Source of the DNA: Ulota crispa
Taxonomy: Eukaryota; Streptophyta; Bryopsida; Orthotrichales; Orthotrichaceae
NCBI GenBank assembly: GCA_963920765.1
Contig: OY987242.1
Coordinates: 8,396,789-8,460,788 of the forward strand
Reading direction: 5' to 3'
DNA: 64,000 nucleotides
This document shows, in pieces, positions 1,312 to 62,457 of this stretch. Under the pieces are notes generated by a model that was not told the DNA's origin, ran no database searches, and saw only the letters and a list, made by a program, of their open reading frames with translations. Position 1 is the first letter of the stretch; each line of letters begins with the position of its first letter. A program made the translations under genes and the position numbers.

Positions 1312-1392
1312 TTAACCCCTCAACGTCTTGGATATTCCATAATACAATAAAAGTTGGCTACATTTTTACCCCCGTTGAGGTTGAGGGGTTAA
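1312..1392. mobile_element. 81-bp TTAA-bounded micro-element
   Basis: The stretch starts TTAACCCCTCAACGTC and ends GTTGAGGTTGAGGGGTTAA, so the outer 13 or so bases are inverted repeats with TTAA on both sides. Its ends belong to the TTAA-CCC class seen at many other places in this window. It is too small to encode anything and would be a deletion derivative. A chance palindrome is the alternative, made less likely by the many larger relatives. Confidence 0.55.
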
Positions 1393-1509
1393 ATGTGAAA
1401 ATGACCTTGCGTGAGACCCTTATCCTACATTTTTACTTCATAAAATATAGGAGCATTCTCACCCTTGCCCTAGAAAGAGGTTGTTAGAGCAATTAAGACT
1501 AGCATGAGT

Positions 1510-1787
1510 TGTTAAAAAATTGTGATATAAGTGATCCTCAAGCACTTATTCACTACTTAGCCTTGTAGTAACTTATGTCATAGAAAATGCCGCCCATAAG
1601 TTGTTAGCTTGCATGATGAGTCTGTTAAGATTGGTAGCTCATCAGTATTCATGAGACCTAAAGTACCACTCTTGGTATGTGTGATGTATCTGCTTGAAGT
1701 AACGTGAATACAAAACTCCTGTATGTGGCAGATCACGTGTATGAGTCAATGTGTTTGCAAACTTGCTATTCTTGCATATTTTCATCA
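1510..1787 (+). repeat. Copia 5' LTR
   Basis: Starts TG and ends CA. Matches 6340-6618 along its full length. The left flank TGAGT repeats immediately after the 3' LTR. Confidence 0.93.
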
Positions 1788-2054
1788 AGTTATAGGCCCA
1801 CATGTAGATCATTTCAAAAACTCTCTGTTATATGCATTATAGCTTACACCTTGTTTTAAAGTTTGCAATTCATTTTTCTAGCTAGAAGTTGAACAGGCTC
1901 AATGGAGTATGAAAGTCCATCAAGAGACCCAGACGTCACAAACGTTGCCTCAGTTCCTGCTGAGCGATCCAGTGTAAAAAGTGGAGAAAATTCCGGTACT
2001 CAAAGTGCCCACTAGACTACAATTCTTACACATAATAGCTCTCACTTAGTTAAC

Positions 2055-2794
2055 ATCCCCAGTATTGGAAAGTTCACGGGCAAGATTATCTCTTTGTGGA
2101 AAATTCAGATTAGTGTTATGCTCAAAGCTAGAAAGCTCATGAGTATTGTTGATGGCTCTCTAACACAGCAGATGTGTGAGAATCAGGGAGAGTGGATTGA
2201 CAAAGATGCAACTTGCCAATCTATAATCATCTTTGCAATGGATGTGAAGCACATACGTTGTTTAATGACTTGCAAGACGGCTAACCAAATGTGGCGTAAG
2301 CTCACCACAATCCATGAACTGAATGCACAGGAGAGTGTTCAGTTGTTACAACAAAAGTTTTATGGGTTGCGCATGCAGTCCAACTTTGATGTGATTGACT
2401 ACATTACCATGGTGGAGCAAATGGTAGAGCAGCTCACGGATCTTAGAGAGCCCGTCTCCGAGCGTGCTGTCATGACAAAAATCTTATGCACCTTGCCGAC
2501 AAGATTCCACCACCTTGTATCAGCCTGGGACAGCATTCCAGTAAACCGACAAACAAAAGAAGCCCTGACTTTATGATTTTTGAAGGAGGAGAGCATCAGC
2601 AACATGTACGGGGAGAATGATGACGAGGGCAGTGACAAGGCCTTCTTCACAAGCAGCCATGGACACAAAGGTGCCCACAGTCACAAGACCCTCTTGCTCA
2701 ATGAGAAGAAGAAACGAGCAATTCACTTTGCTAAACTAAAAAACGAGCGCATTGCCACAAGTGCGGAAAAAAAGGCCATTGGGCTGATGAGTGC
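2055..2794 (+). pseudogene. gag: Copia gag with CCHC zinc knuckle, frameshifted
   Basis: The frame through 2094-2576 encodes a copia-type gag (UBN2/gag-polypeptide family), recognisable from its helical body, including the segments MWRKLTTIHELNAQESVQLL and MTKILCTLPTRFHHLV. The open frame extends upstream of 2094 into FTGKIISLWKIQI-like residues, so the true start is lost or lies further 5'. After a stop at 2574 the frame shifts. A perfect C-X2-C-X4-H-X4-C nucleocapsid knuckle (CHKCGKKGHWADEC) is at 2753-2794 in the protease frame. Gag would package element RNA; this copy cannot make a continuous product. Confidence 0.85.
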
Positions 2795-3220
2795 CTTGAC
2801 AGCAAGAAAGATGGTAATTCTTCAGATCGATCATTGAGATCAGCAAGCGGCAGCTTAGGAGGTGCTTGCAGCGGAGCTAATATCGTGTCCATCGAAGAAG
2901 TTGACAGTGATAGCTCAGCCTTTATGGCCTTCATTGGTGACGAGAGCGAGAAGCGTGGTGATGATGGCCGGTATCTCAATGGAGGAGCCACCGACCACAT
3001 GAGCGACAGAATTGAATGGTTTTGTAACTTTGAAGTTGTGCCGAAAGGAAGATGGCTTGTCATGATTGCTAACAATAGAAAGCTATGGGTGCATGGCATT
3101 GGAGACATTCAAGTACACTGTACTATTGATTCAGTTTTGGAAATACGCACCTTGAAAAAAATCTTGTTCATTCTAGAACTTTGCAAAAAATTTATTTTCT
3201 GTGGGACAAGCTGCCAATAG
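2795..3220 (+). pseudogene. pol: Copia protease, active-site Asp replaced
   Basis: Continues in the zinc-knuckle frame. The retropepsin motif is present as YLNGGATDHM, where copia elements normally have YLDSGATDHM, followed by the usual hydrophobic segment VHGIGDIQVHC. The catalytic Asp is Asn and the next Ser is Gly. An Asp-to-Asn change is a single G-to-A transition. The frame stops at 3220, before the GAG-pre-integrase segment. The aspartic protease that cleaves Gag-Pol would be inactive here. Confidence 0.8.
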
Positions 3221-3287
3221 TGGTTATGTCACGACACATGCCAAATACTCTTGTCATCTCACAAAATAGGGAGAGCCAACAAAGAAA

Positions 3288-4293
3288 GTGTTGGTGGGCG
3301 TTCGTATAAATAAGCTCTACAAACGTCATATGACAGTTGTGACCAACCTCCAAAGCCAGGCAAATGTTGCCACACAAGGTAAACTCACATCAGCGGACCT
3401 TGTTTCTAGACAATTACTAATTGTTGCTCAGCCTTTTCAAGAAGATTGCTGCAAACGGGAAATTGGTCAAAATTTAAACCTTTGGCATCAAAGGTACGGT
3501 CATGTCCACAATGCAATGATTGTCCACTTGCACAATCCTGACACCATGAGTGATCTCAGTTTACAGAATCATGAGCTCCTTATTCACCCATGTGAAGATT
3601 GCGCGCTTGGCAAAAATTCTTGCATACCATTTCCCAAGCGATCAACCATGCCAAGAGCTAAGAAACCTAGTGAGTTCTTTTTTGTTGATGTTTGCGGCCC
3701 AATGAGCCAAGACACTTATGGAGGATCTCATTTTTTTGTCTTGTTCAAAGACAACTACTTAGGCTATAGATTTGTGTATTGTATCAAACACAATACCGAT
3801 GTGTTCTTAAAGTTTAAAGAACTGCAAGCAGTTTGCCTTGAGAGACACAAAAAATGCTATTTCAAAGCTTTGCAGTGATTGGGGAGGGGAGTACCTTAGC
3901 AACAAATTCTCACAGTACCTTTTACAACAAGGTATAACTCATGAGACTACGTGCTCCTACATGCCTGAGCAAAACGACAACGCTGAACAAGAAAATCGAA
4001 CTCTTGTAGAATGTGTTTATAGTATGATTCACGAGAAACAATTAAGTATACAACTGTGGGGTGAGGCTGTGCAAATAGCAGCTTACCTTTTAAATCAAAC
4101 AGCTTCTAGAACACGCAGCTACATCACTCTGTTTGAGTTGTGGCACGGTGAGAAGCCCTCTGTCCAAAATTTGAGAATTTTTGGTTGCGTTGCTCATGTC
4201 CATATCCCACAAGTGCAGCTCAGAAAATTGGACGTAAAAAGCACAAAGGCTATTCTTATTGGCCACTGCAAAAAATCAAAGGGTGCATATTAA
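3288..4293 (+). pseudogene. pol: Copia integrase, two frames
   Basis: The frame 3288-3878 holds the GAG-pre-integrase zinc-binding segment (LWHQRYGHVHN ... CEDCALGK) and the first catalytic Asp (FFVDVCGPM). A frameshift near 3840 moves to the frame of 3838-4293, which has the second catalytic region (SDWGGEYLSNKF) and the third (EQNDNAEQENRTLVE), so the D,D,E triad is still visible. The C-terminal part ends at 4293 and is followed by an unconserved linker up to the RT. Confidence 0.88.
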
Positions 4294-4817
4294 CTCTAGG
4301 ATCCCAAGACATAGCGCATCTTGATAAGCCGCAAAATCATCTTTGACAAATATGCCATTCCCAGAGAGGCTCCAAGCAGGTATGTTTCAAGCCTTTTCCA
4401 AGCATTCCCTAATGATCATACCCCATCTCACTCAGCTGCACCTCCAACCAAATTTTCTCCTCTAGCACCTGCCAGCAATGCTTATTCACGTGCTGTAACA
4501 CCCGTGGAAGTAGCCGAAAGAACACAACCGCCAACTTGGCCAAACTTGCCTTCGAAAGGTACACGCAACTTCAACTCTAGTGATTGCAGTAATCACGTTG
4601 ATCATGATTTGAACTTGTGCCTACCTCCACTGCCACAACCCTAGCATATTCGTGGAATACCAGAGCGCTTTACGGACTTCTACATTCCTCATTCCTATGC
4701 TAACATGGTTTCCAGCATATCAATCTTAGTTGAGCTTGAAACTTATTTTGATGCTATGAATAGCCCAGATGCTACCAATGGCATGAAGCTATGAAATAGG
4801 AAATAGATTCTTTATTA

Positions 4818-6285
4818 TTGAACAAAACTTGGAAGCTTGTTATGCTACTTTTTGGCCGAAAGACCATCCAATGTAGATGGGTTTACCGCATCAAAACCAA
4901 TTCTGACGGTAGCAGTGCTCAATACAAGGCGAGGTTAGTGGCTCAAGGCTGCACTCAAACATATGGTATTGACTACACTAAGACGTTCAGCCTAGTGGTA
5001 CGTCACAAATCCATTCACACCATATTGGGAATAGTAGCTCAACAAGACATGCACATTCTTCAATTTGATATTTGCACAGCTTTTCTGCACAGTACCATAG
5101 ATACTGAACTTTATATGTGCCAGCTAGTTGGTTTTGAAAGCCCTAACAACAAAGACCTTGTTTGTCTTATTTTGAAAAGCTTATATGGTTTCAAACAATC
5201 CAGACAATTATGGAACCAGACATCTAATGATTTCTTAATCAGCTTTGGCCTCTACCCAACTCCTGCCAATGCTTGTGTATACGTCACCAAATTTGAACCA
5301 AAACTAATTGTCACTTTGTTTGTTGACGATGGTTTAGCCTGCTGCACATCGATGCCTAAGCTGGAACAGTTCTTTGCTCATATGGAAAAATCATTTGCAG
5401 TCACAAGGTCAAGTGGCGATCTCTATGTTGGATTTCACATCCAAAGGAATCAAGAATCTTGACAACTCTATATAGACCAATCTCTTCATCTCAAACGCAT
5501 GCTCGTTAAATTTGGAATGCACGCTTGTGCCCCAATCTCTACACCTGCTGACTTCAACGTCAAGTTTGATCATTCTTCTGTTTTTATGCCAAATCCACCT
5601 TTTCTGTACATGAGTGCCGTGGGATCTCTTATGTTTGCCCAGACCTTAAGTTGCCTAGATATTTCATATGCAGTGAACATCTTAGCTCAATTTGGCTCCA
5701 AACCACAGCAATCTCATTATCATGGAGTTATCCAAGTTTTTCAATATTTGGCAGGTACCCTCAACCTTGTGTTATGCTATGATGGAAATTTTGATACTAA
5801 TTTACTCAAAGCCTATGCCGATGCCAACTATGCAAGTGATCTCAGCAATCGCAAATCACATTTAGGCTCTTTGCTTCTACTAAACGGCTCACCAATCGGC
5901 TGGTGCAGTTGCAAGCAGCAGTGTGTTGCAACATCAACAACAGAATCTCAGTATAAGCTGCTAGCTCAACTACCAAAGACATTATTTGGTTTTGACAGCT
6001 CCTCGGTGATATGGGTTTTCCTCAACTTTCTCCTACGCGCCTTCTTTCCGACAATCAAAGAGCCATTCAATTGGTGCATAATCCCGAGTTTCATAGGCAT
6101 ACTAAGCATATTGATATAATGTATCATTTTATTTGAGAGCACCGGTTGCTTTGTAATACAAATGTGCTCTATGTCTCCACTGTTGATCAGTTGGCTAATT
6201 TGTTTACAAAACCCTTACCTGCAGATTGCTTTCAGCTTTTACAATTTGGTCTCAGCCTCCTTTGTCTTTCCGAATCACCTACGTC
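4818..6285 (+). pseudogene. pol: Copia reverse transcriptase and RNase H
   Basis: 4818-5462 is a copia RT (RVT_2): CRWVYRIKTNSDGS near the start, KARLVAQGCTQ, then the polymerase motif FVDDG where YVDD is usual. An in-frame TGA at 5460, probably CGA or CAA decayed, separates it from QLYIDQSLHLKRML, and 5499 onward is open to 6119. RNase H is recognised by AYADANYASD, WCSCKQQCVATSTTESQY and, after a further shift near 5970, by NQRAIQLVHNPEFHRHTKHI and LANLFTKPLP up to about 6230. This is the most complete domain block of the element. Confidence 0.9.
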
Positions 6286-6330
6286 AGCACAATAGATAGA
6301 CAGCCTATATGTCTCATGACATACTAGAAT

Positions 6331-6339
6331 GAGGGAGAG
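6331..6339 (+). promoter_or_regulatory. Copia polypurine tract
   Basis: GAGGGAGAG lies directly before the TG of the 3' LTR. Plus-strand DNA synthesis of LTR elements is primed from such a purine run. Confidence 0.7.
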
Positions 6340-6618
6340 TGCTAAAAAAATAGTGACGTAAGTGATCCTCAAGCACTTGTTCACTACTTAGCCTTGTAGT
6401 AACTTACGTCATAGAAAATGCCGCCCACAGGTTGTTAGCTTGCATGATGAGTTTGTTAAGACTAGTAGCTCATCAATATTCATGAGACCTTAAGTACCAC
6501 TCTTGGTATGTGTGATGTATCTGCTTGAAGTAACGTGAATACAAAACTCCTGTATGTGGCAGATCACGTGTATGAGTCAGTGTGTTTGCAAACTTGCTAT
6601 TATTGCATATTTTCATCA
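6340..6618 (+). repeat. Copia 3' LTR
   Basis: Second copy of the LTR. TGAGT follows at 6619-6623, matching the left target site. Confidence 0.93.
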
Positions 6619-6623
6619 TGAGT

Positions 6624-7110
6624 TTGAATGAGATTCTTGCTGATCTTGTGGCGGTATGTGGATTGCCAAATCTGCAATTACAGAATGTCGTTGGTCCGCT
6701 GAAGACTTGCTTGGCAAAGACGACCGAAGTTTCTGTGCAACAAACTTCCTTGGATTTTCTGAGATGAAAAGGATGGACCAATGTCTTTTGTTTTTGTTTT
6801 TCTCAGGGTGACTTGCACCCCAAAATGCACGCAAGTAAGGAAAAATTGGCTAAAATCGGAATGAAGGAATGATTTAGACATGTTCAACATCCAATAAGGT
6901 TACTAAAATAAGTTATTTTCATCCAAAATATGGCGAACATGGTGTTTGAGTCAGAAGGAACATGGCGATTTCATCCACTTTTTCTCACAAATTTCTTTGT
7001 GCATTGGTTGCCAAAACCAATTTAAGGTACAAATTAGGCAAATATTTGCTAAATAAAAAGAACTCTACAATGGACAAGTGTGCAGATTTTTAAGATCCCT
7101 AGAATTGGTC
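6624..7110. other. Intergenic, nothing recognised
   Basis: Short frames here overlap the LTR or lack any recognisable domain. No repeat structure was noted. Confidence 0.5.
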
Positions 7111-7113
7111 TTA

Positions 7114-7264
7114 GGGTATGTTCCCACTTAATGTTAAGAGTGGTAATAGCAAAGGAAAATTATATACTCCGTACATTTGAACACACATACTCCGTACATT
7201 TGAACATATATATATTGAATTCATATTGCTAATACCCCTCCTAACACCAAGTGTGAACATACCT
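7114..7264. mobile_element. Tourist-like MITE (PIF/Harbinger type)
   Basis: The ends are imperfect inverted repeats of about 40 bp (left GGGTATGTTCCCACTTAATG; right, reverse-complemented, AGGTATGTTCACACTTGGTG). TTA flanks both ends (7111-7113 and 7265-7267), the target duplication typical of PIF/Harbinger elements. The interior has a short direct repeat of ACATACTCCGTACATTTGAA. No coding capacity. Confidence 0.7.
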
Positions 7265-7436
7265 TTAGCCACAAATGCTAAAAGTTCAAACTTGAAAGCA
7301 GGATTATGAAGATTTCACTTGTTTTAGAGAGTCTTGACCAAGAAGCAAGTACAGGAGTCGAAGGTAATTGCAAAGGGCAAAGTTAGGACCTGGCTGCTGG
7401 CCCTCACCTCCGGATTGTTTCCAGTGTGCGGCTAAA

Positions 7437-7443
7437 TAAATAT
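7437..7443 (+). promoter_or_regulatory. Possible TATA box of the VOC gene
   Basis: AAATATA lies about 315 bp upstream of the start codon at 7757, which would give a 5' leader of roughly 285 nt. There is no independent evidence of a transcription start, and AT-rich matches are common here. Confidence 0.25.
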
Positions 7444-7489
7444 ACATCTGCACATCCACCACAGATGGCGGCGCGTTCGCAGTGCGAGC

Positions 7490-8960
7490 AACAATAGATA
7501 ATACTCTACTAGTCTACTACTGTAGTGATCTAAGAATAGTCGAGGCACAAGCTTCACTGGGAAGTTTTCCAGTTCAATAAATGTTGATCCACTGCCGATT
7601 GCTCAACATTCCATCCCCTGTTTTCTAGCAAGCTTGAGAGCACAGAATTCGCCTGAGTCCAAGTTAGAGAATTTGCTTTTAGCACCGATCAATTGACTGA
7701 TCGAGGTACGTATCATACCCAGTCCGAGCTGCCAGCTTGCTTTCACTCGATCAGCGATGGCGAAGACCATGGCGACGAGCTGGCAGAGAGACACCCACAC
7801 CACAGTGACGTCCTTCCTGGTCTCCGCCGGCGCCCAGAAGGTGGTCGACTTCGCGACGGAGGTGCTCAATGCCACGATCATGTGGAACATTCCCAACGAG
7901 GGCAAACCAGGCGTGAAGAACGCCAGCATCCGCATCGGGGACACGGTGGTGATGGTGCAGGACGCGGACGAGAAGCATTCGGCGGCGCCGGTGTGGCTGT
8001 TCGTGTATGTGGAGGACGTGGACAAGACGTACGAGGTGGCGTTGCAGAAGGGCGCGGAGTCGGTGGAGGCGCCCAAGGACGAGTGGTACGGGGATCGCAC
8101 GAGCGCTGTCAAGGATTCCGCGGGCAACACTTGGTGGCTTGCGACGCACAAGTTCGTGCCCGAATGTCCCAACGCCTGATTCCAATGAACATTCTAAGCT
8201 TCCAACGTACACTCGTGCGTCGCGTCGGTCACAGGGGTGCACTGCAGATCTGTAGCAATATGTGATAGATTCTGGAGCAGCAGTAGAGCCTAGAAATAGC
8301 TAGACGAGTAAAAAATCCGAGCTTCTTGCTGGAGTCTTCGTTTAATGGATGTGTGATGTTGTACTCTGTTGTCATTTGCGATGCCATTTGAATATGACAC
8401 GTAATGGAACAAGCCTTTCTTTTGCGGTATAATTTGAGCAGTACCCACTTGATTTGCTTCGGTCCCCAGGTGGCTCAACCGAGTCTCGTTTCCCAAAGAT
8501 GGATGTCGTTGAAACCATGTGAGTCCAGTCCTTGGTGGATTGCAAAAGCCTTTGCTCGTTGCAGAAGAGTTCCAGGTAAGGTTCGGTGCTCCGGCAGTTG
8601 GGAACGGGTGAATAATCGTGCCATGGTCGTATGGGTGTGGTTAATAATACAGGAGTACCGTAGTAATTTCAGGATTGACTGGGACGCTGCAGAAGAAGAG
8701 AGGTGACGATCGGAAGGTGCTGCTAGGCTTTTGTTTGGACGAAATTAATGCGAGTCGTTGCTTGGCGTTGGTGATGTGCTGTGCGAGAAGAATTGGAATA
8801 CTGCTGTGCATTAGTTGAAACTTTGGATTGAGAGATCGATGGCTAGACGTTCACTTTCAAAATGGCGGAGCTCCAGGTTATATCCTGTTTTGAAATCGAT
8901 CGGGAATGGTGTCGTACATTTGAAGTTTTGAGTCTCCGGTCTGCTTCAGCATGATCCTAC
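7490..8960 (+). repeat. Tandem duplicate segment A (VOC gene and flanks)
   Basis: This 1.4-kb block, including 5' leader, gene and 3' flank, is paralogous to about 11570-12900. Shared islands include GAATAGTCGAGGCAC upstream, CCATCCCCTGTTTTC before the gene, GAGCTTCTTGCTGGA after it, and TGACGATC further 3'. The duplicates are direct and separated by transposon-derived DNA, so repeat insertions have probably pushed a tandem pair apart. Confidence 0.8.
7757..8179 (+). CDS. VOC/glyoxalase-like (PhnB-type) protein
   Basis: An intronless 140-aa frame of high GC in AT-rich surroundings. It has one vicinal-oxygen-chelate module: an N-terminal beta strand and helix (SAGAQKVVDFATEVLNAT), a central strand pair (ASIRIGDTVVMVQDADEKHS), then VYVEDVDKTYEVALQKGAES and the PhnB-like tail WYGDRTSAVKDSAGNTWWLATHK. 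Plant relatives (Arabidopsis At5g48480) are annotated as glyoxalase I family, but a true lactoylglutathione lyase activity is not shown by this sequence. Metal ligands cannot be assigned with confidence. The start at 7757 (MAKTMATS) is the first ATG in frame; a second lies five codons later. No targeting peptide is evident, so it is probably cytosolic. A damaged tandem copy lies at 11783. Confidence 0.88.
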   Translation: MAKTMATSWQRDTHTTVTSFLVSAGAQKVVDFATEVLNATIMWNIPNEGKPGVKNASIRIGDTVVMVQDADEKHSAAPVWLFVYVEDVDKTYEVALQKGAESVEAPKDEWYGDRTSAVKDSAGNTWWLATHKFVPECPNA

Positions 8961-9541
8961 TTTGATATTTCGCTGAAAGGACCAAGCCCTAAACCCTCAA
9001 CGGTCGTCCTTGCTTTTGGTTTTTTGAATGCAGTACGACTGTTTAGGTTGGCGTTTCTTTCGGGAGGACCGGAGGAGCAGCTCAAGGCCATTCCACATAT
9101 GAACAAGCAGGCTTTTCGTAAAGAACAATTGGTAGCATTTACGTCTTTGTATGAAAGTTAGTTTTTTGGATTTTTACAATGAATTTTTGTTCTATCTCAA
9201 ATTGACAATTTTGAGTTTTCACAAATTGCTATCTTCAAGCTTTTGCTTTTGAACTGTGCAAATTTTGTAATCAGTAAAACAACGCGTGGAACCTTGAGTA
9301 AGGTAGGAACACCCATAAGCGTTTGTGTCCCCATAACCATCACCTATGAAATCTTGGAAAATCTGTGGAAATGAATAGATGTAATTACAAGGATGTATAG
9401 CATGTGAACATGATACCTTCGTGTCAGTCATGGGTGCAATGGCAATTTGGTCTTTACAAATTCAAAACTTTATCTCACAGTAAGCTTTAAATAATTGTTC
9501 CTCAATTTTCAAAAATATAGTTAATTTTTTCAATTGATTAA
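8961..9541. other. Intergenic, nothing recognised
   Basis: Beyond the 3' end of the duplicated VOC block. No gene or element ends seen. Confidence 0.5.
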
Positions 9542-9690: not shown

Positions 9691-9822
9691 GGGAAAAAGT
9701 GTCATTTTGGTACTTTTGAATTATATGTTTTTTAAAGAGTATTTAGTGAATACTCTTTAAAGAACATAAAATCCAAAAATGTTAAAGTGTCACATTTTCC
9801 CAATTTAATGTATAATGTGTTT
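9666..9822. mobile_element. AACACCATATT-family short palindrome
   Basis: A near-perfect hairpin. The left arm GTTAAACCGGGAAAAAGTGT pairs with the right arm ACATTTTCCCAATTTAATG, and the centre around AGTATTTAGTGAATACT is palindromic. The arms match the ends of the elements at 40734 and 41593 (GTTAAATTGGGAAAAA). Left boundary approximate. Confidence 0.5.
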
Positions 9823-10721
9823 TAAGCTCTCTTTTTTTGCAAAGATTACAAAAAAATGCCACTTCTAGGGCAATGTGTAGAAAGGTTGAAAAAGTAATTT
9901 ATTTTTTGAAAATTCTTCTATAGGATCTTGCCCTATATTACAAGAGGTACCTATTGGAGAAAAGTCAGCTCATTTCAAATGGAGAGGAATGAGATATTGA
10001 CATTTGAAGTGAAAGGAAAAGCTTTTTTCTTCCTATCCAAAAGTTTCAAAAGTCTTTGACCACTCCTATACCAAAATAATTGCTTTGCACAAAGTTTAAC
10101 TTTAATTTCTCCATCAAAAAAGCCAAGGTAGGCTTGTGTGAGAGAATTTTTAAATGAATTGGAAGTGTACAATTTACTCCAAAAAATCTTTGAATGCTTG
10201 AAGGTTCTAAAATTTGCCAATATAGTAGGCAAAATTGGAGGATTTATGTAAAATTCAGAAATTTGAATTACACTATTCTAAACTGTGTAAAATAAGGACT
10301 CTTAGCCCACTATAACATGGAATTATTTGTCAAAAAAAAGTACACAAATTGCTCAAAAACTTAAAGTACCAAATTTTACGAGGGGCAAAGTAATGGGAGA
10401 TTGGGAGTCCCCTAAGATGGGCACCTTCCACTCCACTCCTCTTTGCCCAAGTGTCCACACTTTGTGCCCATAAGAGTCAACACCAACTTTCAAATGAGAG
10501 ACTTTGCCTGAATTACACTCTCTTTCCTAGTTTTGATAAATTCTTGCATAAATCTTTTTATTGAATGTTAGAATGACAAAAAAATTAGATGCCCGCACAG
10601 ATTTTTGAAATCCCTACCTTCAATAGAAGTTTCAAAAAATTCCACAAAGTAGTTTAGTCACAGGTACTTGCCCAAAAAATCCCATTTGTCCTTGAGGGGA
10701 CAACAATCCTTTAGGGGTTAA
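9822..10721. mobile_element. TTAA element, long family (left end eroded)
   Basis: The right end is intact (AATCCTTTAGGGGTTAA, TTAA at 10718-10721). The left end retains a TTAA at 9822-9825 but lacks the CCCCTAAAGG block. The interior aligns by eye with 16577-17318 (for example GATATTGACATTTGAAGTGA against GATATTGACATTTAAAGTGA) and, inverted, with 23005-23928. No transposase frame. Confidence 0.7.
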
Positions 10722-16576: not shown

Positions 16577-17318
16577 TTAACCCCTAAAGGCCGAAGCCCT
16601 TTTTTTGTGTGAAAATCACTCAAAAATGTCACTTTTGGGGGAATAAGTAGAAAGGTACAAAAAAATATTATTTTTGGAGATCCAACCATAAGATTTTGCC
16701 CTAGACTATGAAAGGTACTTGTTTAAAAAAACTTAGCTCATTCTAGATGTAGAAAAGTGCGATATTGACATTTAAAGTGAAAAAAAAGTTTTTTTTTGTG
16801 CTGCCCAAATATTTCAGAAGTCTTTAATAGTTTCTAAATCAAAAAAAAAAAAATTGCTCTATGCAAAGTTGAGGTTTTTTTTTCCCATGTAGAAAACCAA
16901 GTTAGGTATGCATGGGAGAATTTTCAAATGAATTGGAGGTGTCAATCAAACTTTGTAAAATCTTGTAGTGCCATAAGGTCATGAAATTTGCATATACACT
17001 AGGCAAAGTTGGAGGATTTATATAAAATTCAGAAATTTGAATTACTTTGATCCAAATGGTGCAAGGAAATTTCAAATTTTTATTTTAAAAAAATGCAATT
17101 TTTTTTTTGGAGTTGCCCAATTCTTCCATGTTTTCAGTTATTCATGCATTAACATCTTCAATAAATTTCATAATGAAGAAAAATAGATGCCCACGCAATT
17201 CTTTGAATTCCCTATCTTCCATAATAATTTCAAAAAAGCACACAAAATAAGTTAGCTGTCAGTACATGCCCAAAACTCCACTTGGCCCCCGAGGCACCAC
17301 TTGGGACTTTAGGGTTCA
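16577..17318. mobile_element. TTAA element, long family
   Basis: The left end TTAACCCCTAAAGGCCGAAG is intact (TTAA 16577-16580). The right end GGGACTTTAGGGTTCA is decayed (TTCA in place of TTAA). The interior is shared with 9822-10721 and 23005-23928. Non-coding. Confidence 0.75.
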
Positions 17319-18561: not shown

Positions 18562-19495
18562 TTAACCTCTAAAGGACCAATTGTCTGTTCAATGGTTAAA
18601 TGAGATTTTGGGCATGTACCTGTGGTCAAACTATTTTGCATGATTTTTTGAAACTTTTGTTGAAGATGGGGAATTCAAAGATCTATTTGGGCATCTAATT
18701 TTTATTCTAATTGATGCCAGGGAGCAAAAGTTATGCCCAAATAAACACAAATTTGGGGACTAGGGGCAGCAAAAAAAATTCTTATAAAAACTTCAAATTT
18801 TTTTTTTTTTTTTTTTTTTTCTCATAGATTATGTCTTTGTCTACATCTAAAGCTTTGATTCATTCCATTTGGACTAGTTATGAGAAAGTTATGGACAATC
18901 TTGTTTTTTGGGCAATTCAAGCATCTTCTTGAAAAAATAACTTATAAACTTCATTTTTGAATGCAATTTTAACACTTTTTCAAAAAAAGTTGTTGGAGAG
19001 CGTGAAGTTTGCTTTTTAGAACAATCTCACTATTGGGATCATTGCATTTCAATTCCATTTCAAGGTTATTATCAATTTAAGTTTTTGTTCAATCTCATAC
19101 CTTCTTCTACCTAATGTTTTTTTAAAGAATGAAAATGAAGTATTCTTTTTTTTTTTAAATTCCCAAGATTACCAACTCAACTTCCCACCATGCAAAAAAT
19201 AGAATTCCAAACTTTGTGGTGCAAATTTTTAAATGAAAAAAGTTCAAAGTTAAATAATCTAGTGAGGCAAGGTGCAAAAAAAGCTATTTTTTACTTTTTA
19301 AATGCAATCATCTTCCAACCTGTAAGGTCAAAGTTCTTGAGTTTTGTATGACACATTCTTATAGTAGTATAGTACAAGATCCTATGGTCAGATATGCAAA
19401 AAGACCGATTTTCAAACTTTTTTACTCTTTGCCATAGAGGTGACAGTTTTGCTTGTCTTTTGACAAAATAAAGGCCATGGTTCTTTAGGGGTTAA
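18562..19495. mobile_element. TTAA element, 934 bp, inverted partner of 20375
   Basis: Ends TTAACCTCTAAAGGACCAAT and, on the other side, CCATGGTTCTTTAGGGGTTAA, inverted with one or two mismatches. Its reverse complement matches 20375-21303 over the full length at an estimated 85-90% by eye. It contains a long T run (18797-18820) and no usable frame. Confidence 0.85.
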
Positions 19496-20374: not shown

Positions 20375-21303
20375 TTAACCCCTAAAGGACCATGGTCTTT
20401 ATTTTGTCAAAAGACACTCAAAACTACTACCTCAATGGTAAAGTGTAAAAAGTTTGAAAATCAAGCATTTTGCATATCTGACCATAGGATCTTGTGCTAG
20501 ACTACTATGAGAATGTGTCATACAAAACTCAAGAACTTTGACTGCACAAATTGGAAGATATATGCATTTAAGGTGTAAAAAATAACTTTTTTGCACCTTG
20601 CTTGACTAGATTATTTAACTTTGAACTTTTTTAACTTAAAATTTTTGCACCACAAAGTTTGGAATTCTATTTTTGCATGGTGGGAAGTTGAGTTGGTAAT
20701 CTTGGGAATTTAAAAAAAAAAAAGAGTACTTCATTTTCATTCTTTAAAAAAACATTAGGTAGAAGAAGGTATGAGATTGAACAAAAACTTAAATTGATAA
20801 TAATCTTGCAATGGAATGGAAATGCAATAATCCCAATGGTGAGGTTGTTCTAGAAAGCAAACTTCACCCTCACCAACAACTTTTTTTGAAAAAATGTTAA
20901 ACCTGCATTCAAAAATGAAGTTTATAAGGTATTTTTTCAAGAAGATGCTTGAGTTGCCCAAAAAACAAGATTGTCCATAACTTTCTCATAACTAGTCCAA
21001 ATGGAATGAATCAAAGCTTTAGATGTAGACAAAGATATAACCTATAAGGAAAAATAAATAAATTTTTTTTTCAAGTTTTTATAAGAATTTTTTTTGCTAC
21101 CCCTAGTCCCCAAATTTGTGCTTATTTGGGCATGACTTTTGCTCCCTAGCATCAATTGGAATAAAAATTAGATTCTCCAAAAGCTAATGTGTTTTTCTAT
21201 TTTCAAAAAAAGTTTCAAAAAATTAGGACAAAAATTGAGGGTGTAGGTATTTGCCCAAAATCCTATTTGTCCCTCGTAGGGACAATGGTCCTTTAGGGGT
21301 TAA
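20375..21303. mobile_element. TTAA element, 929 bp, best preserved ends
   Basis: Starts TTAACCCCTAAAGGACCATG and ends ATGGTCCTTTAGGGGTTAA: nearly perfect inverted ends of about 18 bp, TTAA on both sides. The short reverse frame 20755-20961 is the only one of note and has no transposase features. This copy defines the family ends best. Confidence 0.88.
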
Positions 21304-23004: not shown

Positions 23005-23928
23005 TTAACCCCTAAAGGCCCGTTGTCCCTTCAGGGACCGTTTGGGGTTTGGTCATGTACCTATGAGTAAACTACTTCATGTAATTTTCTGAAACTTTTA
23101 CGGGAGATGGGGAATTCAAAGATTTACGTGGGCATCAAAAAATTTCTTCAATTTGACATTTATTGAAGAAGTTATGCATGTTTTTTTGAAATTTTGGGGA
23201 GGGCTGCCCATCCGGGCAGCCTAAAAACTTCTTTAAAAATTATATATTTTAAAATAAAATTTTGAATTGGTTCTTTAGTTTTTTTCATACATGAGAAGCT
23301 TTGAATCATTCAATTTCAATCAATGACATGAAAGTTATAAGGAGTTTTTGTTTGCAAGTTGTTATGGATTCTCTACTCTAAAATAAACTTTGAAGTCCTT
23401 TGTTTTACTCAATTTTCATTATTTTGGAAAAAAAAACTAAACTAAAGGAAGTACATTGTTTAATACAACATTATCACCATTGGGATTTGCATTTTTCATT
23501 TCAATAATTAAATTCTTAACAATTTAGTATTTTGACCCATTCTCTCTTCTTTTTACTTATTGATTTTTCTTATGTGTTGTATAGTTCCAATTGATTTGAA
23601 AATTCTCCCAAACATACCTAACTTGGTCTTCTACATGGGAAAAAAAACCTCAACTTTGCGTAGAGCAAATTTTTTGATAAAGGAGTGGTTAACAATTTCT
23701 GAAATTTTTGGGCAGTATGAAAAAACAAATTTCCTTCACTTTGCATGTATATATCTCACTCCTTTTCATTTGAAATAAGCTCAATTTTTTTTCCCAAGTA
23801 CCTCATATTGTCTAGAGCAAGATCTTACAATTGGATTAGAAAAAAAAAAAAAAAAAAACTTTCATCCCCAAAAGTGGCAGCTTTCATTGTTTTTCACGGA
23901 AAAAATAGCCTGGGCCTTTAGGGGTTAA
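23005..23928. mobile_element. TTAA element, long family, 924 bp
   Basis: Ends TTAACCCCTAAAGGCCCGTT and GCCTGGGCCTTTAGGGGTTAA. The interior in inverse orientation matches 16577-17318 and 9822-10721, and also shares a block with 61247-62457 (ATGGATTCTCTACTCTAAAA and its inverse). Non-coding. Confidence 0.85.
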
Positions 23929-24389: not shown

Positions 24390-24633
24390 TTAACCCCTAA
24401 GCGTCAGAGTGGATGTTTTCCACAGGATTCGACAAACAGCCTAGTAATCAAACTTTATAGTTTTTGCATCTCTACGGTGGATTTTCACAAAAATTATAGA
24501 TTTATAGTTTTTATAAAGTTGCCAACATATTTCTATGCTAAATTTTTGATTATGGCTTACACTCAAAGTTATTATTGAAATGTTCTCCCAAACTGTTTAG
24601 ATCCCTATTTTGTTTGTGATGCTCAAGGGTTAA
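24390..24633. mobile_element. TTAA element, 244 bp, first of a joined pair
   Basis: Starts TTAACCCCTAAGCGTCAGAG and ends TGATGCTCAAGGGTTAA, an inverted pair of about 17 bp with three mismatches. The interior is unrelated to the long family. The right TTAA (24630-24633) is also the left TTAA of the next element. Confidence 0.78.
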
Positions 24634-24863
24634 CCCCTAAAGGACTAAGCGTGTCATTGCGGCCAATACAATATAGTGTATTTTTCTTGTATTTGGAATG
24701 GATTCACACCTTTATTACATTTGAGATCAACAAAGAAGTTGGAGAATAGATTAAAGCAATTCTAGTGAGCTACTTGAGATCCCAAATGAAAACTTCTTAC
24801 TGATAGCAAATATCGATTATACAGTAGCGTATATACTATGCCCTATGGTCCTTTAAGGGTTAA
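24630..24863. mobile_element. TTAA element, 234 bp, second of a joined pair
   Basis: Starts TTAACCCCTAAAGGACTAAG and ends TATGGTCCTTTAAGGGTTAA. The interior matches 30612-30846 (TACATTTGAGATCAACAAAG against TACATTTGAGATCAAAAAAG), so this is a repeated 234-bp subfamily. Confidence 0.82.
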
Positions 24864-26062: not shown

Positions 26063-26069
26063 AACATAG

Positions 26070-27627: not shown

Positions 27628-28275
27628 TTAACCCCAAAGTGACATTGCATTTCCAGGGCTTCTAGGAATTTTCTCTAATTTGAACTAATAGTCAATATTT
27701 TGATAAGTTGTATCAACTTTTTTGAATTGTAACCGTATAAAATCAAATTAGACACGTTAGAGATCACATTAAAAAAGAAAACACAACAATATCTCTTATG
27801 GATTGAAATATTATAATGTTTGATCATGAGCGTGTTAAAATTGTGAAAGTGATTTGAAGTCTTCCAATTTTCTTTTCACATGTCAAATCAAGAAAGTTGA
27901 TCACCAAAAAAATATGAGGTTAAAGAGCCTAACATGTATAACCCCAATCAATTTATGACTTCTCAAAATCTACTTTACAATTTTTTTAGATTTTAATGTG
28001 ACTTTTTCCCAAAGACCTAGTGTATTTGAGGCTCATTCCCAAGAGCCCTCAACACTAAATAAAGTTAAGATTGCGATGAACAATTATGCACAAAATCTTG
28101 AATAAAAAAATCATAATTAATCATTTGCAAAATCAAATTGTTGGAACTAAATCTAAACTTCAGAAAGAACTTTTCAAAAATATAATCTACTAAAAATAGT
28201 AATATGGTCGGGTTTAATTTAACCTCAAAAATTGATTGAGGACAGTTTTTGTCTCCAATGACGCTTTGGGGTTAA
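27628..28275. mobile_element. TTAA element, 648 bp, own subfamily
   Basis: Starts TTAACCCCAAAGTGACATTG and ends CAATGACGCTTTGGGGTTAA: inverted over about 20 bp with two mismatches. The interior is not shared with the other TTAA elements here. Non-coding. Confidence 0.8.
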
Positions 28276-30611: not shown

Positions 30612-30846
30612 TTAAACCCTTAAATGTCTAAAGTACCTCTGTGGCCTCTAACCAATATAATACAAGGTATTCTTTTTGTATTTGAAATGGATCCACACCT
30701 TTACTACATTTGAGATCAAAAAAGAAATGGAATATAGATAAATGCAATTTCTAGACTCTAGTGAGCTAACTTAAACTTCTTGTGGATAGCAAATGCCAAC
30801 TTTATGACAACGTCTCTACTATGCCCATGGGACGTTTAAAGGTTAA
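30612..30846. mobile_element. TTAA element, 234-bp subfamily, first of three joined
   Basis: Second copy of the 24630-24863 subfamily. Left end TTAAACCCTTAAATGTC is worn; right end GACGTTTAAAGGTTAA. The right TTAA is shared with the next element. Confidence 0.72.
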
Positions 30847-31619
30847 CCCTTTAGGGCCAAGGGCACCATCGACTCAGGGTAGCTATGAGCACTTTGATTT
30901 TTAAATTGGCTAAGCTAGCAGATTGCTATCAACAAAATTATGAAGTTCATTTTTTCTAGAAACTTTACAATGTTAAATTTGAAAATTTTAGCTTTTTAGT
31001 AGTATTTTTAGCCACTTGAGGTAAAATTGAAAATCATATTTGAGATCACTGGTTAGTAGCATTTTTTCATCTTTTATCAATAAATGGCCAGCTTTTGTCG
31101 AGATCTATCCATATAAATGGAATACATACTACTAGATCTATTACTTGGTCATATCTTGCAAGCTTAGCCCGAATGACCATAAATATTATAACACATCCAT
31201 GCTAGGTTGAGGGTGTCATTATTTCTAAAATCATATACAGTGTTGTGAGGTCAAATTTGTGTCTTTTTAGAGCCCAAATGTGAATTTGAAAAAACCGCAA
31301 TCTAGTAGATGACCTTCATACCAAGCATGTGAAAATTATTTCAAATGAATCTGAGTTTGAACAAGAATTTCAAGCATTACAAAGTGAGGGGGTCTTTGTA
31401 CAGTTTTTACTCACAATTCCTGAGCTTGACTCACTTCAATCCAAGCTTCTGGATTCATTATAAATCTAATAACAATGTACATGGGCTTGTTTGATCCAAA
31501 ATTCCCTTGCCCTCCTACTTTGTTCACATGTCACTTGTAACCGCAACATGCTTAAAAAGCTATTTCAAAAATAGTGGTTCAATTAACCAAAACTGGCTCT
31601 CTTGGCCCTAAAGGGTTAA
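30843..31619. mobile_element. TTAA element, 777 bp, middle of three joined
   Basis: Starts TTAACCCTTTAGGGCCAAGG and ends CTTGGCCCTAAAGGGTTAA: about 19 perfect inverted bases. Non-coding interior not seen elsewhere in the window. Confidence 0.85.
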
Positions 31620-31848
31620 CCCTTGAATGCCTATGGGGCTCTTGGATACCTATGGGGCTCTTGGATACGGCACCGTATTCTAACAATTTCCCAGCATTCT
31701 TTTTGGTATTTTGGACTGCTAAAGGTTGATCTGAAGGCACCTTTGCAACAAAGATCACTTCCTTTTACATTGTCATGTCTAATTCCACCCCAAACACCCT
31801 TGAATACGTCATATACAAAAATAGAGATACCCGGCCCTAAAGGGTTAA
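31616..31848. mobile_element. TTAA element, 233 bp, third of three joined
   Basis: Starts TTAACCCTTGAATGCCTATG and ends CCCGGCCCTAAAGGGTTAA. It includes an internal direct repeat of ATGGGGCTCTTGGATAC at 31632-31668. Confidence 0.75.
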
Positions 31849-38999: not shown

Positions 39000-39320
39000 T
39001 TAACCCTTAATCGTCAGCTCAGGCCCTGGTGGGGGCAGTCAAAAGGATCACATAAAAAAATACGCAGCAATTACTTTGGCCGGGTATGGATACATAATCA
39101 ATCACAATAAAGAAACAGGCACACAAGGAATCAATTTGACACTTAGGCAAAAATTAAATAATCTTTCAAACCTCTGATGGACACATTGCAAGCAAGTATC
39201 AAAACAATCGATATCGCAAGTATGTGCAGTAGATGAGTTGCATAGAGCGGCTACCACAACTTATTTGCAAGTAAAAAAAGTTTTTGTGAAAACCAGGCCC
39301 CTCAGCACGATTAGGGTTAA
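39000..39320. mobile_element. TTAA element, 321 bp, own subfamily
   Basis: Starts TTAACCCTTAATCGTCAGCT and ends CTCAGCACGATTAGGGTTAA, inverted with a short indel. Non-coding. Confidence 0.78.
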
Positions 39321-51130: not shown

Positions 51131-51142
51131 TATTTGTGGCTC

Positions 51143-53934: not shown

Positions 53935-53969
53935 CTTATGGATATTTTACATTGGATCCTACATCTTGT

Positions 53970-54600
53970 TTTTACAAGTTCCATCTCAAAGCAAGATCCT
54001 AGCTTTCAATGGGTTATTAAGAGTAGTAATGGAATAGCATAGAAAACTATGAATATTTTATATAAAAAAATTGATGGGACTTGGGCCAAAAGTTGAGTTT
54101 AGCAAAACAATTAACTCAAACCTTAAGTAAAGTCCTACCCTCTTTGGGGCCCAAACCTCTAAATTGAAGTACTATCATGTAAGAAAAAGGCAACAAATTG
54201 TAATATGGAACTTGGAATGTAGTGTGAAGTGTCCCTTACTATCTAGGAGAGGAAGGGACGCTTCACATTGCATTCCATGTTCCACATTGCATGTTTTAAT
54301 AAAATTTGAGAATGTGATTGGTGTAAAGCCAAAAGTTGGAACTTGACACTTCAAACTACCTCCCAAGATTCACGTCCCAAACTCCACATTGGCCAATTCA
54401 TCGCATTTTGCTTACACAATGTTTTGGAGCCAAAAAGGGTCGGACATAACTCAAGGTTTGAGTTAATCATTTTGCTAAACTCAATTTTTGACCCAAGTTC
54501 CATCAATATTTTTGTATAGAATATTTATGGCTTTTTTTTTACTACTCCTTTACTCCATTACTGCATTACTCCATTACTCCATTACAAAGTTGGGATCTTG
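53970..54600. mobile_element. Foldback element, about 630 bp
   Basis: The arms pair over more than 200 bp: TTGATGGGACTTGGGCCAAA on the left against TTGATGGAACTTGGGTCAAA in the inverted right arm, with further pairing outward (AGCAAGATCCTAGCTTT / CGCAAGATCCCAACTTT). The right arm has expanded a TACTCCAT-type microsatellite at 54541-54584. A related arm lies at 62630-62790. Non-coding, exact ends uncertain. Confidence 0.65.
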
Positions 54601-54678
54601 CGTTGATGTGGGATTTGCACATATGGGACGTGGGACTCAATGTGAACCACCCCTAACTCTCACGAATCCTCCACTGAA

Positions 54679-55929: not shown

Positions 55930-56600
55930 AGGGAAGAACCGAACCGCTTGTTCAAAGCTAGCCGATCAAAATGAGAAGAAACAGCTTGGAATTTATAAAC
56001 TTCGGCTAAAAATCGACTAAAAATCTATAATTTTTTTTTATAGGGAATTGATATGTGTACCACACCTTTTGAACTACTGTACCACACTTTTTGAACTACT
56101 GTACCACACCCCAGGGTAAACTTTAGATTTCTACCATCAAAATGTAAAGTTGAGAATTTGGAATTCAGATTTGGACTTAGAGACCATGATTTATTTAGTC
56201 TAGAATCATACCAAAGTTGTAATTCAACAATAGCCAATGAAAAAGTTTATTTTTTTTACAAACAAAAGTAACAGTAACACTTTTCTCCCTAGCTAGACTT
56301 TTTCATTGGATGTTGTTGAATTACAACTTTTTGTATGGTTCTAGACTACATCATGGTCTCTAAGTCCAAATCTGAATTCCAATTTCTCAAATGCAGGTTT
56401 TTGATGGTAAACATCTAAAATTTACCCCAGGGTGTGGTACAGTAGTTCAAAGGATGTGGTACACCTATCAATTCCCTTTTTTATATATAGTATGAAATAG
56501 AGAAAGTAACCGAAACAATTTCTTGAGTAACCGGTTCAGGAAATCAACCGAAAAATCTCAAATATTTCCAGGACCCTGGTCGCACCAATCTACAGGTCTC
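55930..56600. repeat. Repeat segment interrupted by a foldback element
   Basis: Paralogous to 26070-26300 on both sides of the element at 56043-56476. Confidence 0.72.
56043..56476. mobile_element. Mutator-like foldback element, 434 bp, 9-bp duplication
   Basis: The ends GGGAATTGATATGTGTACCA and (inverted right) GGGAATTGATAGGTGTACCA continue as inverted repeats for about 200 bp, so it is nearly all arm. A perfect 9-bp target duplication TTTTTTATA flanks it (56034-56042 and 56477-56485). A 9-bp duplication with long terminal inverted repeats is characteristic of Mutator-like elements. The left arm contains a local duplication of TTTTTGAACTACTGTACCAC. Non-coding; a truncated relative is at 9542. 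Confidence 0.85.
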
Positions 56601-60100: not shown

Positions 60101-60740
60101 GGATCAATGACACATTGACTTTCGCTAAGTTACCCTACATGAACCACTTTGAGGGAATTTTAAGTCTTTAGCTGTCTCGCAACTATCAATTAGCATTTCC
60201 TAAGACACATTTGTCTCTTAAAAAAAGATGTGCAACTGTGTTTGGATGAGTATTGATTTGGAATTTGGCTTTAAGTTTAGAGTGTAGGACCTTAACTTGA
60301 CATCTTGCCTACTACAATAGTAGATTTCTAACACTAAATGCAATGTTAAGTTAGAAAGAGGTCTCTAAGATGACAACCTAGATATGAAACAGGTTTTAGA
60401 TGAGGAACGAATTTATGTTGCGTACTCGAATTCACTGAAATGTGTTGTACTCTTAAGGTTAGCAGCTTAGTGAAACCACTACCTATCTAGTTGTTTTGCG
60501 TTTGTTTGTTATTGCGTTATTTTTGGTTTGCTGCACATGGTGACGCTGTAGGAACGGTTTTGCAGGACGGTGTACTACGGACAATACAAATGCACCGGAC
60601 CCGGTTCCAATCAGGTCGGTAGAGTGCCGTGGTCCCATGAGCTCACTGATTTGGAGGTTGCGCCATTTCTATCTCTCGGCTTTGTGGATGGCGAGGCTTG
60701 GATCCCGCAACATTTGAGACCTGTTGAACCTGCAGTATAA
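57134..60740 (+). CDS. Pectinesterase, secreted, no pro-domain
   Basis: Five exons: 57134-57579, 57975-58143, 58746-58952, 59654-59892, 60566-60740, GT-AG throughout, total 411 codons plus stop. The N-terminus [20 protein letters not shown] is a signal peptide, followed by about 110 residues of a unique linker (no PMEI fold recognised). The catalytic domain follows with [42 protein letters not shown] (catalytic Asp), [18 protein letters not shown] and a [21 protein letters not shown]-terminus. QDSLY has Ser where QDTLY is usual. Function is cell-wall pectin demethylesterification. Intron positions and phases (2,0,0,2) match the gene at 13431; introns are longer here (395-701 bp). No defect seen. 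Confidence 0.93.
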
Positions 60741-61246
60741 ATCCATTTTTCACCTTCAAACTTTTCAATTGAAACTAGTAAACTCTGATCTACTCCAGCC
60801 ACGCTAGCATAGTTTCGAAGCCACAAATGTGGTCCTCTGGAGATACTTATAGTATAGTGGGCAATCTATTTCAGGGAGATGGTTTTTTTGGCTGTGACGT
60901 TACTCGCTAGTCACGACGAATGGAAGAGAGATATATGACAAATAGTTTTAGATCATAAGTGCTTCGTATAAACTAGAGAGGCCTTTCCAAAATGCCTCGA
61001 TATTAGTTGTTGAATTTATATTATTCATTTGACGGGCCATAAAATTGGTCTGTGTGCAATACAGACTTTATCCACCCAAACCTGCAATTTTTCTTTGGCT
61101 ACTGTGCAATGTGCATATATTAATGATTTGCATTATTTCATGACCACATCAAAAAAACTTGTTCAATTGTAGCTCAGATGACGCTTATGCAACTATTCTC
61201 TTCCATTTTGTCTTTCTTTTCAAATAAGACACCTCCTCAAACTTTT
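60741..61246. other. Pectinesterase 3' flank, nothing else recognised
   Basis: No element ends or frames of note. Confidence 0.5.
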
Positions 61247-62457
61247 TTAACCCCTAATGGACCAAGCAAAGTTTTCATCAAAAACTCTTCAAAACTGCTA
61301 TTTTTAGAGCATCAACCAAATTTGAAAAAAAAAACATTTTTATTTGTATGTCATAACATTCAATAGCCTAAAGAGAGGTTGCCTTTCTCTCTCTTCAGGT
61401 ATCATCCACAAACTTCATCTTGACAATTATTTATTTATTTATTTATTTATTATTTATTTTTATTTTAAATTTTTTTTGACACATCTGGTCCCCTCGACGT
61501 TTGTGCATTGAACTAAACCTCCCTTTCATAAACTTTGAAAAATTTAGTTAAGTGTCCCCATAGTTAAAGAAGGGTGTGAAATATTTCACACCATTCTCTT
61601 GGAGGGAGGGCAACCTTTACTAGTGCTATTGAATGTTATGGTGACCGTAGGATCTTGTAAAAGAATGATTATAGACGACGTGGAAAAAATTTCCGAGCTT
61701 TCCACCACATGGATTGGAAGTTAGAATTGTTTGAAGATTCAAAAATGTCTTGTGAAAAACCAGGCAGCTACCCTTCAAAAGGTGAAATTCCTAAGGAAAA
61801 AAGACCATGTGGGTGGTGCTTCTCTAAATTCCTTATTCCACCTCAATAAAGTACATATCAAAAAGTTTCAAATCATTTGGAGTTATATAACATATGGAAA
61901 AAAATTAGTAAGTAAAAAGAAGTAGAGAATGATTCAAAACACTAAATTGTTAAGAATATAATCATGGAAATGAAAAATGCCAATCCCAATGGTCATAATG
62001 TTGTCATAAACAATCTTCATCCTTTGGTTTTGTTTTTTTCCAAAATGTTGAAAATGGAGTAAAATAAAGGACTTCAAAGTTTATTTTGGAGTAGAGAATC
62101 CATAATTGCCTGCAAACAAAAAAATCCTCATAACTTTCATCTTGTTGATCCAAACGGAATGATCTAGAGCTTCCTACATTCACATAAATCTCCTAAACCA
62201 ACTCAAAATTTTTTTTTTTGAAAAAAGTGATTTTTAAAAATCTGCCCAAGCTGCCCAACAAACGTAAAAAACAACATACTAGGCCATAACTTTTTACTCA
62301 TAATTCAAAATGTTATGAAATTTAGTACATATGAAAGATAAACCTTGTCTCTACATTTTAGTAAAATTTCAGCCTAAAATATGAAAAGCTCCAATCAGAG
62401 GTACCTGCCCAAAATTGCTAGATTTCTAAAAAAGGGGTCTGGTCCTTTAGGGGTTAA
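61247..62457. mobile_element. TTAA element, longest copy, 1211 bp
   Basis: Starts TTAACCCCTAATGGACCAAG and ends TCTGGTCCTTTAGGGGTTAA. It shares internal blocks with 23005-23928 (TTTATTTTGGAGTAGAGAAT and its inverse). An ATTT microsatellite lies at 61430-61460. Frames are short, so no transposase is encoded. Confidence 0.8.

Follow-up and report, generated by a model that had tools for sequence, protein, structure and literature searches.

Short TTAA-bounded elements of a moss genome as non-autonomous piggyBac transposons with transposase-bearing relatives

A 64,000-nt stretch of the nuclear genome of the moss Ulota crispa (contig OY987242.1, positions 8,396,789 to 8,460,788; hereafter the window), taken from an assembly of 275 Mb in 157 contigs, holds fourteen TTAA-bounded intervals, A to N, that are almost certainly non-autonomous piggyBac transposons and mostly miniature inverted-repeat transposable elements (MITEs). 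We directly observed their ends, empty sites with a single TTAA, many transposase genes in the genome and ends that window elements and transposase-bearing elements have in common. The whole is best read as a set of MITE families that depend on a number of related transposase lineages, a link made here for two of them. The intervals are the following.

A, 1312..1392, unstranded: 81-bp TTAA interval with ends CCCCTCAACGTC/CCCCTCAACCTC.
B, 9822..10721, unstranded: long family; starts TTAAGCTC, about 15 bases of the left terminal inverted repeat (TIR) lost, right end intact; adjoins the palindromic repeat 9668-9824.
C, 16577..17318, unstranded: long family, interior shorter than in the others; left end intact, right TTAA (17315-17318) mutated to TTCA.
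D, 18562..19495, unstranded: long family; left end TTAACCT; in inverted orientation to E, with which it shares 87.5% identity.
E, 20375..21303, unstranded: long family; 19 perfect terminal bases including TTAA.
F, 23005..23928, unstranded: long family.
G, 24390..24633, unstranded: 244-bp MITE; TTAA 24630-24633 common to G and H.
H, 24630..24863, unstranded: 234-bp MITE.
I, 27628..28275, unstranded: 648-bp MITE with ends CCCCAAAGTGAC/CCCCAAAGCGTC.
J, 30612..30846, unstranded: 235-bp relative of H; left end TTAAACCC, right end AGGTTAA; TTAA 30843-30846 common to J and K.
K, 30843..31619, unstranded: 777-bp element with ends CCCTTTAGGGCCA; TTAA 31616-31619 common to K and L.
L, 31616..31848, unstranded: rearranged copy with a 19-bp tandem duplication at the left and a K-like right end.
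M, 39000..39320, unstranded: 321-bp TTAA interval with ends CCCTTAATCGTC/CCCTAATCGTGC; boundaries weakly supported.
N, 61247..62457, unstranded: long family; about 290 extra bases near the left end.

Alignments uphold the grouping proposed in an earlier note on this DNA, in which six long copies formed one group and a 234-bp pair stood apart: B, C, D, E, F and N (742-1211 bp, in both orientations) make up a long family with local alignments 59-87.5% identical (B and N gave no direct match at the alignment cut-off used), H and J are a 73% identical pair, and G, I, K, L, M and A each have an interior of their own. Except for A, the elements have the properties of MITEs, being short, non-coding, present in high copy number (as seen for E, G, H, I and K) and bounded by TIRs and a target-site duplication. 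The earlier note had described all fourteen as running from TTAACCC to GGGTTAA; we found this strict form at both sides of ten (A, E, F, G, H, I, K, L, M and N), whereas B, C, D and J depart from it, their ends being explained by mutation or loss. The ends of different families resemble a common CCC(C/T)TNAANGNC-like pattern and start as piggyBac TIRs do (CCC or CC[C/T]T), the left end of J with an extra A.

The window contains 360 TTAA sites, and scoring of TTAA-anchored ends against TTAACCCCTAAAGGNCC, with 30 Markov-resampled sequences as the control, revealed 27 ends that match at 13 or more of 17 bases (control mean 1.9, maximum 5) and 16 that match at 14 or more (control mean 0.13), while at 11 or more the 49 ends observed were indistinct from the background of 40.6. 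When the inner 13 bases were scanned with TTAA ignored, TTAA nevertheless preceded 20 of the 24 top matches, the other four being internal in B (one) and in F (two) or part of a degenerate end at 22188-22204 (TTAT); the latter was considered as a relative of I and set aside, as the similarity was too weak. A further test, in which TTAA sites 60-1500 bp apart were paired if at least 9 of 12 inner bases were complementary and at least five of these were G/C, was passed by 16 pairs, 11 of them of CCC/CCT type; with eight other 4-mers it gave 1-14 pairs, the 14 coming from AATT, for which there were about four times as many pairs to try. Subterminal palindromes (for example TTGTCCCTACGAGGGACAA in right ends of the long family) were also considered as transposase sites and not used, the effect being weak (26 ends versus 277 interior windows, Mann-Whitney p = 0.009). 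A lone TTAACCCCTAAATGTC end at 54679 adjoins a 741-bp inverted repeat (53926-54666), and a search for its partner end found none that was recognisable.

The genome carries many genes for a piggyBac transposase. A search with PF13843 (DDE_Tnp_1_7) gave 120 matches at 116 scored places (out of 528 first-look candidates), the best with an expectation value (E-value) of 1.3e-73 and many covering nearly all of the 349-position model; the same search in 14 control genomes returned no match. Ten of the 120 matches have no stop over the matched part. The transposase loci that we fetched (28, representing 24 distinct places) are all matched by a hidden Markov model (HMM) built from 90 of 120 listed database proteins, many of them to the C-terminal end of the model. 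The catalytic aspartates are kept at 23 (D1), 18 (D2) and 20 (D3) of the 24 places, with all three present at 15, and Cys clusters are recognisable by eye in many C-termini. Identity among the 24 places averages 36% (27-83%), the best match of each among the 120 listed database proteins is 29-36% identical, and in a FastTree phylogeny that includes four reference proteins about eight groups can be told apart by eye, an approximate number given the partial decay of the sequences and the lack of a root. A database search with a piggyBac consensus, which scored only the candidates sharing most words, was uninformative about plants: the best 120 of 3217 matches name no plant, and animals where a host is named.

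Elements with homologous ends that encode PF13843 tie the window to these genes, and they support the piggyBac superfamily inferred in the earlier note, which had proposed a search for an autonomous copy with these ends; transposase-bearing partners came to light for the long family (L059+L010 and L018+L063+L064) and for I (L025). The contiguous loci L059+L010 hold a transposase-bearing element at 1563-9595 (8.0 kb) with ends TTAACCCCTAAAAGCCCA and TTAACCCCTAAAGGCCCA, the left end resembling F 1-191 (67%) and the right end C 1-362 (60%) and F 562-924 (62%). A copy of the family is apparently nested within it at 3575-4500; its right 280 bases resemble D and E at 59-60%, and its left boundary would lie at a TTAA end. 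The likewise contiguous L018+L063+L064 hold a second such element (1245-9774, 8.5 kb; ends TTAACCCCTAAAGGATT and TTAACCCCTAAAGGACC), whose left end resembles C 1-499 (70%) and F 443-924 (71%) and whose right end resembles F 1-215 (81%, E-value 7e-51), so that about 700 of the 924 bases of F have a counterpart in it. The L010 and L018 transposases are sisters in the FastTree phylogeny (support 1.0) and have their 3' end toward the same kind of end. At L025 a transposase-bearing element (1475-6998) is bounded by CCCCAAAGTGACA ends that are perfect over 13 bp, and the first 26 bases on its left share 96% identity with the left end of I. Further CCC end pairs were seen at the transposase loci L009, L011, L012 and L027; a transposase-bearing partner for G, H/J, K, L, M or A was not found among the 24 of 116 places viewed with flanks.

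These linkages do not favour the proposal of the earlier note that one end-recognition system had mobilised many interiors, since in the two families that can be linked the end classes, at least two in number, go with distinct transposase lineages: CCCCTAAAGGNCC goes with L010/L018 and CCCCAAAGTGACA with L025. That a single transposase mobilised all the different interiors is therefore unlikely, even if the end pattern common to the families would suit it and the accessible part of a study of coral CMITEs argues that CC[C/T]T could permit cross-mobilisation (PMC2872659); the low average identity among the moss transposases likewise speaks against it. In the best-supported account, a PF13843 transposase made by full-length elements elsewhere in the genome would bind the CCC(C/T)-type ends, excise the element and paste it into a TTAA, which would then stand on both sides. 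The six long copies are kin of a ~8-kb transposase-bearing element, without its middle and the transposase gene there but with both of its ends; I uses the ends of a second transposase lineage, and G, H/J, K and L would probably depend on further ones. We infer that the window elements were mobilised by these transposases, through cut and paste.

Empty sites speak for the TTAA duplication that the earlier note had claimed and had proposed to check in this way. We took 20 long-family copies with 1.5 kb flanks, joined the flanks of the 18 that have TTAA at both sides with one TTAA, and compared the joined flanks with the window and the fetched loci. The copy at L034 sits inside another copy of its own family: its joined site aligns to E over 400 bp, its joined flanks are matched at 82-86% by 21 distinct copies, counting the inserted one, and the junction is a single TTAA without a gap in the alignments examined. 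A single TTAA at a gapless junction, with homology on both sides, was also found for L045 (against window 41622-41848 and L009, 86%) and for L042 (against L052, 83% over 282 bp), and TTAA stands at the junction in L035 (against L038 and L009) and L048 (against L016, 68%), where one side has only about 16 and about 21 matched bases, respectively. Two more distant relatives of the L045 site have CTAA and TCAA there. Within the window, copies abut through one TTAA (G/H; J/K/L), and elsewhere in the genome two I pairs (C5:25543414-25544065 / 25544062-25544706 and C5:18877774-18878427 / 18877197-18877777) and one H pair (C3:6643707-6643940 / 6643484-6643710) overlap, in match coordinates, by exactly 4 bases, while another H pair overlaps by three. 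Insertion into the TTAA of another copy would give such four-base overlaps.

Several results weigh against the piggyBac account or temper it. Stops interrupt 110 of the 120 PF13843 matches, which speaks against taking present activity as given. No transposase was detected in the window by Pfam, HMM or tblastn scans, a result that at the same time bears out the non-autonomous nature of its elements: with an E-value cut-off of 0.05, Pfam returned no family for 16.5-32.5 kb read in six frames and no transposase relic in the three plus frames of 32.5-40.5 kb (elsewhere the scan covered single frames; of the intervals it took in C to L and four of the six frames of N), the matches in D, read in all six frames, and in N stayed below the curated cut-offs, the HMM built on 90 database piggyBac proteins reached a best E-value of 0.15 when run over the whole window in six frames, and the best for tblastn with piggyBac was 0.084. 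The right end of I matches L025 in the terminal motif only (10/12). End pairs of at least 9/12 occur at 6 of 20 transposase loci when each locus is paired with itself (the other 14 have no own pair within the 3 kb fetched on each side) and in 59 of 380 cross pairings, so that a locus pairs only moderately better with itself; this difference is small because the lineages have similar ends, and hence the several hundred subterminal bases of homology, not the short motif, carry the argument. Among the joined flanks, 8 of 18 lack a spanning match in the window and fetched loci, those of L029 and L031, which lead back to themselves or to the ends of other elements, were left out of the count, no clean TTAA site emerged for L040, L033 and L042 against L018, and at L038 TTAA is present along with a 10-base gap 17 bases away.

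Since empty sites alone cannot separate a 4-bp duplication from a TA duplication inside a strict TTAA, it is the transposase that decides. Sola3 also uses TTAA. This target, and the listing of Sola1 for Physcomitrella in the accessible text of a 2022 review of plant transposable elements (TEs), are the points in favour of Sola3 transposons, which we nonetheless regard as highly improbable here, because a piggyBac transposase is what the elements with homologous ends encode (no search was aimed at a Sola3 transposase). The same holds for Kolobok transposons, which duplicate TTAA through a different DDD/E transposase and are known from chlorophytes according to the portion available of PMC9587614: their termini follow the rule 5'-RR...YY-3', so that Kolobok fails on the CC...GG ends found here, and the partners with these ends encode PF13843 (again, no search was aimed at a Kolobok transposase). 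Tc1/mariner-type elements with a TA duplication inside TTAA and an A/T terminal base pair would leave the same sequence after a 2-bp as after a 4-bp duplication, given a strict TTAA target, but they can hardly be the source, as TTAA is present at 19 of the 20 left ends, and at as many of the right ends, of E-type copies (below) and the matching full-length elements encode PF13843.

The piggyBac-type ends and elements are abundant in the genome. TTAACCCCTAAAGGNCC has 10,998 exact matches (5515 forward and 5483 reverse), compared to none on either strand for the reversed pattern used as a control, and seven forward/reverse neighbours among the places listed lie 925-963 bp apart. If both ends were exact and the elements of the long kind, this would correspond, as an estimate and not a count, to about 5,500 elements, 5 Mb or near 2% of the genome. 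In searches that scored the best 40 candidates per element, the window copy included, 34 of the best 40 for E (of 3390 first-look candidates) span 1-929, with 39 others at 90-92%; 39 of 40 for I (of 4780) span 1-648; 33 of 40 for H (of 4000) span 1-234; 29 of 40 for K (of 964) span 1-777; and 19 of 40 for G (of 130) span 1-244, at 73-79% besides G itself. These copies support the boundaries assigned to E, I, H, K and G. The exact end motif of I, TTAACCCCAAAGYGWCA, occurs 97+112 times (control 0+0), far more rarely than the I candidates, so that either most copies have altered ends or the first look was generous. For M, 5 of 41 matches (M included; best 40 of 124) begin at base 1 and only M reaches base 321, and for L (best 40 of 46), apart from L itself and one 1-200 match, matches start at 24-48 and end at 185-229, thus stopping short of the TTAA ends of the window copy. 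Three relatives of L that we fetched have CCCTTGAACGCC-like ends, one right end being mutated; the K-type right end of L, unlike that of its relatives, could reflect a deletion fusion or an exchange of ends between piggyBac families. The search with A returned A alone (one of one candidate), which does not prove rarity, and form alone suggests that A is an element.

Twenty E-type copies, E included, have TTAA at the 19 of 20 left and right ends noted above and differ by 7.3% on average (1.3-9.0%). Their distance to the majority sequence is 4.4%, and C>T and G>A are the most frequent changes. As they are among the highest-scoring matches, they represent only the E-like end of the family, and the divergence among the long copies of the window (59-87.5% local identity) is larger.

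The animal world has supplied most descriptions of piggyBac, the workhorse transposon of animal genetics. The mechanism at work in the moss is an ordinary one; the expansion is striking for a land plant and, as far as we searched, unreported in mosses. Beyond this, we see about equal grounds for and against a broader proposal, namely that a long-lived, diversified piggyBac radiation (about eight groups in 24 places) seeded thousands of non-autonomous copies, makes up a main group of DNA transposons in this genome, a place given to other superfamilies in reviews on plants, and is to be expected in other mosses, where it would have been overlooked because MITEs carry no genes. With 116 scored transposase places and 10,998 end motifs, piggyBac can flourish in a land plant. 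Its native ends, empty sites and lineages provide material for asking how piggyBac entered or persisted in plants and how end classes and transposases co-evolve; a native plant piggyBac may also become a genetic tool, and bryophyte repeat annotation may be overlooking a whole superfamily.

Around these elements, the window has a glyoxalase-like gene at 7697-8176, whose best named match is Ceratodon purpureus M758_1G183900 (61%), and a pectinesterase gene from 57125 onward, whose best named match is C. purpureus M758_1G184100 (73%), followed by matches from Physcomitrium and Sphagnum. Because these two C. purpureus genes are numbered nearly consecutively, the gene neighbourhood looks conserved. 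Scans of the window for Rfam families at the gathering threshold and for tRNAs gave no match.

Other repeats share the window with the TTAA-bounded elements. A Copia element at 1506-6618 has long terminal repeat pieces (1506-1787 and 6337-6618) that are 94% identical and frames that are interrupted, and 49021-51868, beside a stretch of N (200 N in the window), carries an integrase zinc-binding domain and, by eye, a Gypsy-like reverse transcriptase frame. To the eye, the frames at 33683-37159 resemble a hAT-type transposase in decay; Pfam recognised no family in two pieces of them, nor in the three plus frames of 32.5-40.5 kb at an E-value of 0.05. A repeat with AACACCATATTCGTTAAATTGGGAAAAA-like ends is present at 40734-40991 and 41593-41849 and also at L009 and L058, and a copy of it was the insertion target of the piggyBac MITE at L045, perhaps of others. 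Elements at 42523-42788 and 45196-45427 have TTAAAATGGGAGATT at both ends and form a further inverted-repeat family, distinct from the CCC type. Finally, a palindromic foldback at about 56044-56476 interrupts a repeat (55931-56577) of which an uninterrupted copy lies at 26087-26302; the flanking matches there overlap by 14 bases, so there may be a target duplication, 14 bases long at most.

The literature on plants, cited here from the accessible parts of each source, is divided. The 2022 plant TE review names six TIR superfamilies (Tc1-Mariner, hAT, Sola, MULE, PIF-Harbinger and CACTA), with piggyBac absent, and so agrees with the statement of the earlier note that such elements are not established in land plants; an angiosperm MITE review, in which PiggyBac is one of seven MITE superfamilies, and the table for the C-fern genome, with 1230 PiggyBac copies (PMC6890710), do not. 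The PiggyMac paper speaks of piggyBac-like elements in fungi, plants and metazoans, and a Stipa repeat table gives 1 PiggyBac copy (PMC8319324). C-fern and Stipa thus resemble the moss as plant genomes with copies labelled PiggyBac, but what is accessible there are table counts, with no ends, transposases or MITE families described (PMC6890710, PMC8319324). Our literature search found no report of piggyBac in mosses among the results listed, which is not proof of absence from print; a word search found piggyBac absent from the main text of the papers on the genomes of Pleurozium, Fontinalis and Sphagnum, and a match from Niphotrichum was the word "piggybacking" and was discarded.

Among known systems (seen in part, as above), Kolobok and T2-MITEs share the TTAA target and the formation of MITEs with the moss elements but differ in their RR...YY termini and their transposase (PMC6004289, PMC9587614), ten full-length Xenopus Kolobok copies beginning AG... 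(PMC6004289). The CMITEs of the coral Acropora are closer, as piggyBac-type MITEs with TTAA and tandem arrays, and the TIR of their family III, CCCCTCAGTGTCCG, resembles the CCCCTCAACGTC of A; they are, however, about 100 bp long with a common interior and variable ends (PMC2872659), whereas in the moss the interiors differ and the long family, unlike CMITEs, retains large end regions of its full-length relative. CC[C/T]T together with TTAA is given as the hallmark of piggyBac (PMC2872659), and a survey of animal piggyBac elements reports CCCTT as the most conserved start, with CCCTC among others (PMC10813416). With that superfamily the moss elements have in common the TTAA target and duplication, the CCC(C/T) termini, a DDD transposase in their partners and, to judge by eye, apparent C-terminal Cys clusters; they differ from it in their moss host and in transposases (24 compared) whose identity to the closest of the 120 database proteins listed is 29-36%.

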